A DNA stretch of 39,529 bases from Myxococcaceae bacterium (GTDB lineage: Bacteria; Myxococcota_A; UBA9160): the NCBI GenBank assembly GCA_905339255.1, contig CAJPFO010000098.1:1-39529 (forward strand), read 5' to 3'. Below the pieces are notes generated by a model, which saw nothing but the letters and a program-made list of their open reading frames with translations, was not told where the DNA came from and did not search any database. Numbering within the stretch: position 1 is the stretch's first letter; every line of letters starts with the position of its first letter. The position numbers and the translations under genes were made by a program. Below are positions 6,754 through 10,639 of the stretch, piece by piece.

Positions 6754-7758
6754 CTAGAGCCGCAGCAGGCCGCAGCCCCAGGAGAAGCCCGAGCCGAACG
6801 CCGCCATGGCGACGAGAGACCCCGGTTTCGCGAGTCCCGACTCGCGCGCCTCGGCGAGCAGCAGCGGGATCGATGCCGCCGAGCAGTTGCCGTAGCGCTC
6901 GATGTTGTTCAAGCATTTCTCGGCCGGGATTCCGAGCGCGTTCGCGACGTACTCGTTGATCCGCAGGTTCGCCTGGTGGAAGAGGAATAGATCGACGTCC
7001 TCGAGCTTCTTGCTCGCCGCCGAGAGCGTTTCGTGGAGCACCTCGGGCATCCGGGTGACGGCGTTCTTGAACACGAACTTCCCGTCCATCTTCGGGTAGA
7101 TCCTGCCGTCGGCGATCATCTCCGCCGTCACCCGCGTCGGCTTGAGTGCGCAGCCCGGCGCCTCGATCCAGAGCTTGCGGGCGTGCTTGCCTTCGGCGTG
7201 CAGCCGCACCTCGATCACGCCGGGGTCTTCGGCCCCTCCCTCGCTCGCCTCGAGGATCACGCCGGCCGCTCCGTCGCCGAAGAGCACGGCCACGTCGCGT
7301 CCGCGCGTGGTGAGCTCGATTCCCATCGAGTGGATCTCGACGCCCATCACGAGAACGCGGTCGAACTGTCCGGAGCGGACGAACGAGTTGGCGGTCGCGA
7401 GCGAGTACAAGAAACCCGTGCACTGCGCGCGCAGGTCGAAGCAAGGGATCTCCGGCGCATCGAGCAGTTCGTGCAAGAAGAAGCTCGTTCCCGGGAACTC
7501 GTGCTGCGGCGAGAGCGTCGCGAGCACGATGCAGTCGATGTCCGAGATCGCGAGACCCGCGTCGGCGAGTGCCCGCAGGGCGGCCACCTTCGCCATGTCG
7601 GCCGGGGTCTCCCAGTCCGCGGCAAAGCGGCGCTCCTTGATCCCGGAACGCTTCTGGATCCACTCGTCGGTCGTCTCCATGAGCTTTTCGAGGTCGTGGT
7701 TCGTGACCACGCGCTCCGGGACGTACATCCCCGTTCCGACGACCTTTGCCCGCCTCAT
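6754..7758 (-). CDS. fabH: 3-oxoacyl-ACP synthase III (FabH-like thiolase-fold enzyme)
   Basis: A 334-residue condensing enzyme. FabH normally joins an acyl-CoA primer to malonyl-ACP to start fatty-acid synthesis. The catalytic triad is visible as Cys113 in FDLRAQCTGFLY, His261 in FHQANLRI and Asn291 in GNCSAASIP, close to the E. coli spacing. The N-terminus (GTGMYVPERVVTN, TTDEWIQKRSGI) and C-terminus (AAFGSGFSWGCGLLRL) are typical. A charged insertion around 188-230 makes it slightly longer than E. coli FabH, as in many FabH-like paralogues, so a specialised condensing role is possible. The start is ATG 7756-7758, which overlaps the hflX stop as ATGA, implying translational coupling. The frame stays open far upstream inside antisense hflX sequence, which is only high-GC noise. 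Confidence 0.9.
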   Translation of the reverse strand: MRRAKVVGTGMYVPERVVTNHDLEKLMETTDEWIQKRSGIKERRFAADWETPADMAKVAALRALADAGLAISDIDCIVLATLSPQHEFPGTSFFLHELLDAPEIPCFDLRAQCTGFLYSLATANSFVRSGQFDRVLVMGVEIHSMGIELTTRGRDVAVLFGDGAAGVILEASEGGAEDPGVIEVRLHAEGKHARKLWIEAPGCALKPTRVTAEMIADGRIYPKMDGKFVFKNAVTRMPEVLHETLSAASKKLEDVDLFLFHQANLRINEYVANALGIPAEKCLNNIERYGNCSAASIPLLLAEARESGLAKPGSLVAMAAFGSGFSWGCGLLRL

Positions 7759-9443
7759 GCGCTCGTCCCCCCTGCAGCCGTGAGGGCGAAGAGTTCGCCC
7801 GCCCCTGCCGATCGATGATGACCCTCCTCGAAGAGGAGGGTGGCGGCACGCTCGAGGAGCTCGCGGAGCCCCGAGCCGTGGAGGGCGGAGATCGCCACCG
7901 CCCCGTGCCGCTCGGCCAGCGCGGCACCGTCGCCCGGCGCGAGCCGGTCGATCTGGTTGAAGACGAGGAGCTCGGGCGTGTCTTCGAGCCCGATCTCTCC
8001 GAGCACGCGTCGCACGGCGGCGATCCTGCGTTCGATGTCGGGGGCCGACGCGTCGACCACGTGCAAGAACACGTCCGCCCCGTCGAGCTCCTCGAGCGTG
8101 GCGCGGAACGCCGCGACCAGATCCACCGGGAGATCGCGGATGAAGCCCACCGTATCGGTCACGATCACGTCGCGCTCGCGCGGGAAGCGGAGCCTCCGCG
8201 AGGTCGGATCGAGGGTCGCGAACATGCGATCCTCGACTCGGACGTCGCTCGCCGTGAGCGCGCGGAGCAGCGTGCTCTTGCCCGCGTTCGTGTAACCCAC
8301 GATCGAGAGCACGGGAAGCCCGCGGCGATCGCGTCGCCGGCGTCTTTCTTCGCGCTCGCGGCGCAGATGGGTGAGCTCTCGCTCGAGCCTTGCGATGCGG
8401 TCGCGGACGCGCCGGCGATCGACCTCGAGCTTCGTCTCGCCGGGCCCCCGGCCGCCGATTCCGGCGCCGAGTCTCGAGAGCCCGAGATCCTGCTGCGAGA
8501 GTCGCGGCAGGCGGTAGCGGAGCTGCGCGAGCTCGACCTGGAGCTTGCCGTCCCGGGTGCTCGCTCGCTGCGCGAAGATGTCGAGGATGAGCTGCGTGCG
8601 GTCGATGACGCGAAGCTCCATCCGCTCGCCGAGGTTGCGAGCCTGCGTGGGCGTCAGGTTCTGATCGAAGATCACCAGGTCGACGCCCCGTTGGAAGGCG
8701 CGGATCACGAGATCCTGGAGCTTGCCCTCGCCGAGCGCGTACTTGGGGTCCATTCGCGGCCGATGCTGGGTCACGACGTCGGCGACCACGACGCCGGCCG
8801 AGCGTGCGAGCTCCTTGAGCTCGGCGATCGCGGCCTCGTGGTCCTCGGCGCGCCGGCCTGCCGTGACCGAAACCAGGATCGCCCGCTCGCCGTCGCCGAC
8901 CGTGCGGGCGCGCGTGGTGCGGGCGAGCTCCTCCTCGAGGTCGCGGATGAAGCGCTGGAAGTCGAGGTCGACGAGCGAGGGCGGGCGCGGCGGGAGCTGC
9001 TGGACGGTGGCCCCCTCGTCGTTCGCGGCGCGAAGCGTGGCGGTGAAGGCGCGGTCCGGGAGGCCGCTCGCGTCCATGCCGACCGAGACCATCGCGTCGA
9101 GGCGGAGCAGCGCGAGGTCGGTGAGATCGTCGCGCGTGAGGCCCTCGTTGCCGAGATGGGTGTGGATGCAGCGAAGCCCTCGCAGGCGCCCGGGCCCGGC
9201 ACGCATGCGTCCCCAATCGGGGAGCTCGATCGAATGCGGACCCCCGACCATCGCGTGCGTCACCGCCCCGCGCCGGTCGACGAGCACGCCCACCTGTCTC
9301 CCGGTGGCGTGCGAGAGCAGGGTGAGCTCGCGGGCGAGATCGTGCGTCACGAGGCGGTCGGCGGGAAGCTGGCGACGGAGCAGGCGCTCGAGCTGGCGAA
9401 CCTGGGTGGCCCGGAGGCCCTGGGTGTTTCCGAAGACCCGGAT
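7755..9443 (-). CDS. hflX: GTPase HflX (ribosome-splitting), probable non-canonical AUC start
   Basis: HflX binds the 50S subunit and splits stalled or hibernating ribosomes. The N-terminal HflX domain is followed by the hallmark GIGGRGPGETKLE, a basic coiled coil, and the G domain with G1 GYTNAGKST, G3 DTVGFI and G4 NQID (usually NKxD). The first canonical start is GTG 9348-9350, giving 531 residues. The conserved opening RVFGNTQGL, expected at residues 2-10 of this family, is encoded in frame upstream of that GTG without any ATG, GTG or TTG. An ATC at 9441-9443 places it exactly, with GAGGGA six bases before and a promoter at 9479-9508. I therefore extend the gene to 9443 (562 residues). 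It is coupled to fabH by an ATGA overlap. Confidence 0.9.
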   Translation of the reverse strand: MRVFGNTQGLRATQVRQLERLLRRQLPADRLVTHDLARELTLLSHATGRQVGVLVDRRGAVTHAMVGGPHSIELPDWGRMRAGPGRLRGLRCIHTHLGNEGLTRDDLTDLALLRLDAMVSVGMDASGLPDRAFTATLRAANDEGATVQQLPPRPPSLVDLDFQRFIRDLEEELARTTRARTVGDGERAILVSVTAGRRAEDHEAAIAELKELARSAGVVVADVVTQHRPRMDPKYALGEGKLQDLVIRAFQRGVDLVIFDQNLTPTQARNLGERMELRVIDRTQLILDIFAQRASTRDGKLQVELAQLRYRLPRLSQQDLGLSRLGAGIGGRGPGETKLEVDRRRVRDRIARLERELTHLRREREERRRRRDRRGLPVLSIVGYTNAGKSTLLRALTASDVRVEDRMFATLDPTSRRLRFPRERDVIVTDTVGFIRDLPVDLVAAFRATLEELDGADVFLHVVDASAPDIERRIAAVRRVLGEIGLEDTPELLVFNQIDRLAPGDGAALAERHGAVAISALHGSGLRELLERAATLLFEEGHHRSAGAGELFALTAAGGTSA

Positions 9444-9478
9444 CGCTTTTCCCTCGACGGCGGGGTGCCGATGCCCCG

Positions 9479-9508
9479 AATCTAGGGTCGAGGCCCCGGC
9501 CCTGGCAA
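9479..9508 (-). promoter_or_regulatory. Putative sigma-70-type promoter for hflX-fabH
   Basis: On the minus strand, TTGCCA (9503-9508, 5 of 6 matches to TTGACA) is followed after 18 bases by TAGATT (9479-9484, 4 of 6 matches to TATAAT). The predicted transcript would start near 9472. That leaves about 29 bases of leader to the candidate AUC codon but about 120 to the GTG at 9350. Confidence 0.45.
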
Positions 9509-9598
9509 GGACGCCCGCCCGGCGCCTCGAAACCCTCCCGGAATCGTCGCGCTACGGCCTCGCTGGACGTCCGACACGAAGCGGGAAGACTTGCGGGC

Positions 9599-10639
9599 AT
9601 GAAACCGGTCCGGCTCGTGACGCTTCTGGCTTCGCTCGCCCTCGGCTCGGCCGTCGCTGCCGAGCCTTTCCCCGGCCCGGCCCCGCGTGACGCAGACGGC
9701 CGCTTCTTGAACCGGGCCGGCCCGATCCCGCAGGCCGGCCCCTCCGTGACGTTCCCATTTTTCTTGCGGCGCTTCGGGACGAGCGTGACGGGGCGGGAAG
9801 GGGAGCCCGCGTGGCTCGGCAACGACGGCGCCTTCCTGCGCGAGAACGCCCGACACAGCGTTCCGACCGTCACCTGGATCGGACATGCGACGCTGCTCGT
9901 GCAGATGGATCACGTGACCTTCTTGACGGATCCGATCTGGTCGGACTCGCCGAGCCCGATCCCGTTTCTCGGTCCCGAGCGCTTCGTGGCCCCCGGCATG
10001 AGGATCGAGGATCTCCCGCCGATCGATTTCGTGCTGATCTCCCACGACCACTACGACCACCTCGACATCCCGACGCTCACGGAGCTCGCCGAGCGCCATC
10101 CCGAGGCGCGCTTCCTGGTGCCCCTGGGAAACGCGGAACTGCTGCGCTCCGAGGGGATCGAGCGCGTCGAAGAACTCGATTGGGGAGCGAGCACCTCGGT
10201 CGGGGGCGTCGAGGCGGTGAGCGTGCCCGTCCAGCACTGGGGACGCAGAGGGCTTTTCGATTCGCGCGAACGCCTTTGGTCGGGCTGGGTCGTTCGCGGC
10301 GCCGAGCGACGCTTCTACTTCGGAGGCGATTCCGGCTACTCGCGCGACTACCGCGACGTCGGCGCCGCGCTCGGACCCTTCGACCTCGCGGCGCTGCCGA
10401 TCGGCGCCTACGAGCCGGAGGCCATGATGCGTCCGTGGCACCTCGATCCGGAGCAGGCCGTCCAGGCCGGTCGCGAGCTCGGTGCGCGGCGGATCGTGCC
10501 GATCCACTACGGGACCTTCGACCTCTCCGACGAGCCGCTCGACGAGCCGCCGCGCCGCTTCAGGGCGGCGGCCGAGGCGGCGGGCTTCGCCGCCGAAGAC
10601 GCGCCCGTGTTGCGCGTCGGGGAGACGCTCCGCTTCTGA
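9599..10639 (+). CDS. Exported metallo-beta-lactamase-fold hydrolase (NAPE-PLD/UlaG-like)
   Basis: A 346-residue protein. Residues 1-21 form a Sec signal peptide ending SAVAA-EP, so the mature protein is periplasmic. The metal site is seen as WIGHATLL (about 94-101), the HxHxDH motif SHDHYDHLD (148-156), His213 in VQHWGRRG, Asp244 in GGDSGYSRDY and His303 in PIHYGTFDLSDEP. The MRPWHLDPEQAV stretch and the order of motifs are those of the N-acyl-phosphatidylethanolamine phospholipase D branch, so a phosphodiester or lipid substrate is plausible but unproven. The start is ATG 9599. It is divergent from hflX across about 155 bases that hold the hflX promoter; I found no good promoter for this gene. 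The next gene, glmU, follows after 135 bases. Confidence 0.85.
   Translation: MKPVRLVTLLASLALGSAVAAEPFPGPAPRDADGRFLNRAGPIPQAGPSVTFPFFLRRFGTSVTGREGEPAWLGNDGAFLRENARHSVPTVTWIGHATLLVQMDHVTFLTDPIWSDSPSPIPFLGPERFVAPGMRIEDLPPIDFVLISHDHYDHLDIPTLTELAERHPEARFLVPLGNAELLRSEGIERVEELDWGASTSVGGVEAVSVPVQHWGRRGLFDSRERLWSGWVVRGAERRFYFGGDSGYSRDYRDVGAALGPFDLAALPIGAYEPEAMMRPWHLDPEQAVQAGRELGARRIVPIHYGTFDLSDEPLDEPPRRFRAAAEAAGFAAEDAPVLRVGETLRF

Follow-up and report, generated by a model that had tools for sequence, protein, structure and literature searches.

A probable AUC start codon in long-form hflX and the conservation of its start class across several phyla

Introduction

Where does translation begin when a conserved protein sequence opens upstream of the first canonical start codon in its frame? 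This question is raised by the hflX gene of a Myxococcaceae bacterium (Myxococcota_A; UBA9160), located on contig CAJPFO010000098.1 of assembly GCA_905339255.1, whose positions 1 to 39,529 make up the window analyzed here. A sequence-only reading of this DNA had proposed that hflX is initiated at an AUC codon. Very few bacterial genes are known to use AUU, AUC or AUA (together AUH, where H is A, C or U) as their start codon. HflX is a GTPase that splits 70S ribosomes when they are idle or stalled, and the initiation factor IF3 keeps the subunits apart. IF3 also destabilizes 30S complexes on start codons other than AUG, GUG and UUG, and its own gene, infC, which starts at AUU in E. coli and at AUC in Streptomyces, is autoregulated in this manner.

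Results

The hflX locus of the window

The features of the locus, all on the minus strand, are as follows:

7755..9443, minus: hflX coding sequence read from ATC, 562 aa, long-form HflX GTPase
9441..9443, minus: putative start codon AUC, kept as ATC, ATT or ATA in relatives; conservation and codon periodicity begin here
9450..9455, minus: Shine-Dalgarno-like GAGGGA, with six bases (AAAGCG) between it and the AUC
9479..9508, minus: promoter-like pair by consensus match, TTGCCA (9508-9503), 18 nt, TAGATT (9484-9479)
9552..9554, minus: in-frame stop TAG upstream of hflX, closing the frame
9348..9350, minus: GTG, first canonical codon downstream of the ATC, 31 codons in and inside the conserved N-terminal domain
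8892..9431, minus: N-terminal domain (GNTQGL...HTHL...DDLTDL), predicted JAB1/MPN (JAMM)-like fold
7757-7755, minus: hflX stop codon TGA

The product scores 448.7 bits with TIGR03156 (GTPase HflX; cut-off 216.75) over residues 187-534 and carries about 190 extra N-terminal residues ahead of this match. The 36 codons between the TAG at 9554-9552 and the ATC at 9443-9441 comprise no ATG, GTG, TTG or CTG, and between -60 and +40 nt around the ATC no ATG, GTG or TTG occurs in any frame. The positions given by the sequence-only reading were exact: ATC at 9443-9441, six bases after GAGGGA (located here at 9455-9450), and GTG 9350 as first canonical codon. By itself, the GAGGGA is a Shine-Dalgarno (SD) sequence of moderate strength.

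The same reading had noted a -35/-10 pair upstream. The TTGCCA-18-TAGATT pair is indeed present, with one -35/-10-like pair at 9508-9479 in the real leader and none in 50 shuffles, while its standing as a promoter is that of a consensus match; from this pair, the transcript would start near 9472. A divergent gene (9599-10639, plus strand), a putative metallo-beta-lactamase-fold hydrolase judging by its HxHxDH motif, begins 155 bases away from the start of hflX, which places the putative hflX promoter in a short divergent intergenic region. A structured leader masking the start was considered and rejected, as the 68-nt stretch shows no more stable folding than shuffled sequences (z +1.3).

Protein conservation begins at the ATC

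Comparison with a relative of the same genus (L005) revealed identities of 0.94/1.00/0.77 at the first, second and third codon positions in the 31 codons that separate the ATC from GTG 9350, against 0.30/0.40/0.25 in the 60 bases before the ATC. Seven synonymous and two non-synonymous codon changes separate the two genomes within the 31-codon stretch. Four more relatives showed a comparable break in identity at the start, which in L010 is less sharp at first codon positions. As identity collapses at this point, conservation of the protein starts at the ATC or within about one codon of it.

AUH start codons prevail in long-form hflX of several phyla

Named relatives came from a species-level genome collection, in which depositors had labeled them Myxococcales, Myxococcota or Deltaproteobacteria and, for further ones, Acidobacteria, Nitrospirae, Desulfobacterales, Syntrophaceae and others. 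Sampling, for which a profile built from the N-terminal domain was used, covered the phylum of the window and those of L064, L112 (Acidobacteria) and L093 (Nitrospirae); the phylum of L064 is Desulfobacterota, since it contains Desulfatibacillum (L098/G178).

Within the order of the window, we defined the homologous codon by a fixed position, four codons before GNTQGL. Aligning the hflX upstream regions of relatives, the check suggested by the sequence-only reading, showed ATC, ATT or ATA at this position in 26 of 27 distinct loci, GTG in the remaining one and ATG in none (0/27), compared with a mean of 0.41 AUH codons per 27 loci at other offsets. A wider census covered 241 distinct long-form hflX loci that remained after removal of identical start regions. 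Here, ATC was found 112 times, ATT 55 times and ATA 20 times, adding up to 187 of 241 AUH loci, and ATG (18), GTG (12) and TTG (11) together accounted for 41; the census starts were picked near the conserved GN motif, some of them by eye, so this codon column is partly selected. Four loci were ambiguous. Non-AUH starts were nearly always another one-base neighbor of AUG, including CTG (7) and ACG (2). Two counts are independent of hand calls: choosing the start-like codon with the best SD returned AUH in 196 of 241 loci, and the fixed-offset count within the order (26/27) likewise involves no manual choice.

By group, AUH starts were present in 26 of 27 loci of the order and 33 of 67 in the rest of the window's phylum, as well as in 26/30 loci for the phylum of L064, 18/19 for that of L112 and 27/30 for that of L093. 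In a small extra phylum around L097, four out of five further genomes carried one. The CTG codons fall in seven loci of the wider phylum (L145, L146, L151, L165, L167, L170 and L138). L219 and L076 have ACG where their relatives have ATG or GTG, and these may be ACG starts.

The upstream reading frame is closed in 109 of the 187 AUH loci, where a stop occurs in frame and no ATG, GTG or TTG lies between it and the conserved protein. Several genomes of the order have this stop only a few codons upstream, such as L025 with a TGA four codons before its ATC, and in many relatives the start follows within a few bases of stops and an AGGAGG (for example TGA TGA AGG AGG CAC GCT ATC in L064).

Together, these comparisons make the AUC start of the window's hflX well supported. 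They also support regarding it as one case of a wider conserved feature spanning several phyla. No earlier report of a rare hflX start was found in the open-licence PMC literature, so novelty is unproven.

Alternative origins of the hflX N-terminus

Three other accounts of the hflX 5' end were weighed against initiation at the AUC, and all of them appear very improbable. A standard annotation program would choose GTG 9350, in which case translation would begin there or at another internal codon, and the DNA upstream would be mere leader. Yet the preceding 31 codons are conserved as protein, with a third-position periodicity that extends across phyla, and the relatives share no common canonical codon at that place; we rejected this start because the codons upstream of it are conserved as protein, and give it hardly any credence. 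Marginally less improbable, though still very much so, is a start further upstream that adds an N-terminal extension, a frameshift from another frame or the use of some other rare codon. In its favor, an open frame with a canonical codon at a distance of more than nine codons upstream occurs at 48 of the 187 AUH loci. Against it stand the 109 AUH loci that are closed by stops and have no canonical start, the window itself, which has no nearby ATG, GTG or TTG in any frame, and upstream sequence that is not conserved. An extension or frameshift was rejected on the grounds of these closed frames and of the missing starts in all frames.

The least probable account, to which we assign a negligible chance, is a sequencing or assembly error that turned ATG into ATC. 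The window does stem from a draft assembly of 335 contigs, but an error cannot account for about 187 distinct AUH loci. Near-complete, single-contig genomes carry such hflX starts as well (G351, ATC; G315, ATT; G310, ATA), which excludes assembly error as the cause. Base error was among the outcomes that the sequence-only reading had named as speaking against its proposal; another, an ATG elsewhere in relatives, was not seen, ATG being absent from the homologous position in the order and rare beyond it.

AUH starts pair with strong Shine-Dalgarno sequences

An SD run of at least five bases precedes 144 of the 187 AUH starts, but only three of the 41 ATG, GTG or TTG starts (Fisher p = 3e-17, which overstates the significance since related sequences are not independent). 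The AUC start put forward for the window is matched in its relatives both by ATC, ATT or ATA at the homologous position and by the pairing of AUH loci with strong SD sequences. In a tree built from 181 N-terminal domain sequences, the start codon switches 42 times among ATC, ATT and ATA, but only nine times between AUH and ATG and 16 times between AUH and any other codon. These change counts indicate that the third base of the start codon is free to vary among A, C and T and rarely becomes G. Judging from these sequence comparisons, selection for the AUH class in long-form hflX over several phyla is supported.

Rare starts in infC and canonical starts in control genes

For infC, the best-SD rule was applied to 30 genomes from the order and yielded ATC 21 times, ATA three times and ATT, CTG and ATG twice each, so that infC has an AUH start in 26 of 30 genomes. 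In the window's own genome, infC shows GAGGAGAAGAGC followed by ATC. The N-terminal length of infC differs strongly between families of the order, with the AUH start kept (G042/G005: L298, L300; and others). The adjacent rpmI, where found, starts at ATG (29) or GTG (1); obgE, encoding a ribosome GTPase, has ATG, GTG or TTG and no AUH at the homologous start, with locus L425 ambiguous; and GTG opens the short HflX paralogue in the window's own genome. As these three use canonical starts, the rare start belongs to particular genes rather than to the organism as a whole, and lax start usage throughout the organism was rejected.

Joint loss of rare starts was considered as proof of a shared infC-hflX circuit. 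In a set of 58 additional genomes, selected so that many of them carried canonical hflX starts, the two start classes showed no tight co-variation. Both genes are AUH in the window's order, but in many genomes of the wider phylum their classes differ; several pair an AUH hflX with a TTG or ATG infC, or the reverse. Since the two classes switch independently, a common IF3 circuit is not a requirement, and the uncoupling speaks against strict coupling in one circuit and in favor of selection on each gene separately.

Discussion

A possible response of hflX to IF3

Taken as a whole, the best explanation, which we consider probable, is that hflX is initiated at AUC, that its AUH class is kept by selection and that its output would depend on IF3. 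The sequence comparisons support the start and its conservation, whereas the IF3 response and its physiological purpose are inferred. In this model, hflX would be translated from the AUC at 9443-9441 with initiator tRNA, guided by the SD sequence, and IF3 would eject initiator tRNA from the AUH codons of hflX, as it does on infC. HflX output would then stay low while IF3 is abundant relative to initiating 30S subunits and rise when IF3 becomes scarce or initiation fidelity drops. HflX and IF3 would thereby answer one signal, with the splitter following the anti-association factor. Such IF3 feedback is plausible because infC of the same genomes shares the start class and IF3 represses starts of this kind. 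Reported cases of repression by IF3 are infC (AUU) and sigR (GTC) (PMC5472188), and the proposed contact of HflX on the 30S subunit closely resembles that of IF3 (PMC4770234).

The main rival to such a response accepts the AUH start as real and lets it merely fix HflX at a low level, without sensing; IF3 sensitivity would be a by-product with no regulatory role. We regard this as unlikely, although several observations fit it. The ATG, GTG and TTG loci have weak SD sequences, so that what is conserved may simply be total output; beyond the order, hflX and infC do not co-vary in start class; weak starts have been described as attenuators (PMC13009471); and a low fixed level has been proposed for pcnB. 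For a fixed low level, however, ATG with a weak SD would suffice, yet the combination of strong SD and AUH is kept in most lineages, third-base changes go among A, C and T rather than to G, and the same design serves regulation in infC and sigR.

Extending the IF3-dependent reading to both genes, infC and hflX might form an ancient regulon that is read at the start codon, both having AUH with a strong SD across several phyla. We hold this only tentatively, at somewhat less than even chances. If true, the supply of free subunits and the availability of IF3 would set the level of the splitter without a dedicated regulator protein or riboswitch. More generally, hflX as an AUH gene over several phyla would show the start codon itself to be a regulatory element that persists over long times and ties ribosome recycling to the fidelity of initiation. 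There is also a practical side, as standard gene finding would miss AUH starts; in the window, overlooking the AUC would remove as many as 31 conserved residues and with them the first part of an uncharacterized domain.

Comparison with known rare-start genes

The closest likeness is infC, which combines a deeply conserved AUH start with a strong SD and whose product acts on the state of free ribosomal subunits. The two differ in that IF3 autoregulation is experimental for infC and inferred for hflX, and in that they change start class independently outside the order. Streptomyces sigR likewise pairs a non-canonical start, GTC, with a conserved strong SD, AGGAGGTG, has IF3 as its likely discriminator and is misannotated at its start by standard gene finding; SigR falls with raised IF3 and rises in IF3 fidelity mutants (PMC5472188). 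Its GTC or GTT starts are confined to one genus, whereas hflX uses AUH, with some CUG and ACG, in several phyla. In S. aureus, infC (AUA), cvfC1 (AUU) and ccpN (AUA) all have an extended SD, the latter two resembling hflX in this respect and in their rare AUH start, which in them holds expression low (PMC13009471).

E. coli pcnB (AUU) is a further case of a rare AUH start that holds expression low. Unlike hflX, ccpN, cvfC1 and pcnB serve other functions, and conservation across several phyla is not described for them. Short-form HflX of the E. coli type shares the GTPase core (TIGR03156) and presumably the ribosome splitting. The short paralogue of the window's own genome differs from the long form in lacking the N-terminal domain and in its GTG start; in this survey, the AUH start goes with long-form HflX.

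N-terminal domain and downstream gene

The N-terminal domain of long-form HflX has no Pfam match. Its AlphaFold model has a mean pLDDT of 89.6, and both structure comparisons of this model placed JAB1/MPN (JAMM) proteins on top. The best structural match was P. furiosus JAMM1 (5ld9_A), with a Z score of 7.5 (below 8) and an rmsd of 2.9 over 103 residues; Foldseek returned a JAMM/MPN match at E 0.011 and no solved structure at E <0.001. In the alignment of the domain, HTH(L) is nearly invariant and Asp-102 (domain numbering), ten residues past the second His, is invariant. Compared with the JAMM metal motif HxH...D plus catalytic Glu, the spacing is off by one residue and no conserved Glu was identified in the alignment. 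The modeled domain thus resembles the JAB1/MPN (JAMM) fold with a score below the secure level, and we claim no catalytic competence for it.

At the other end of the gene, the hflX stop codon overlaps the ATG of the next gene in an ATGA (7755-7758, minus strand). This gene (7758-6754, minus strand) encodes a FabH-like ketoacyl-ACP synthase III of 334 aa, and its translation may be coupled to that of hflX through the overlap.
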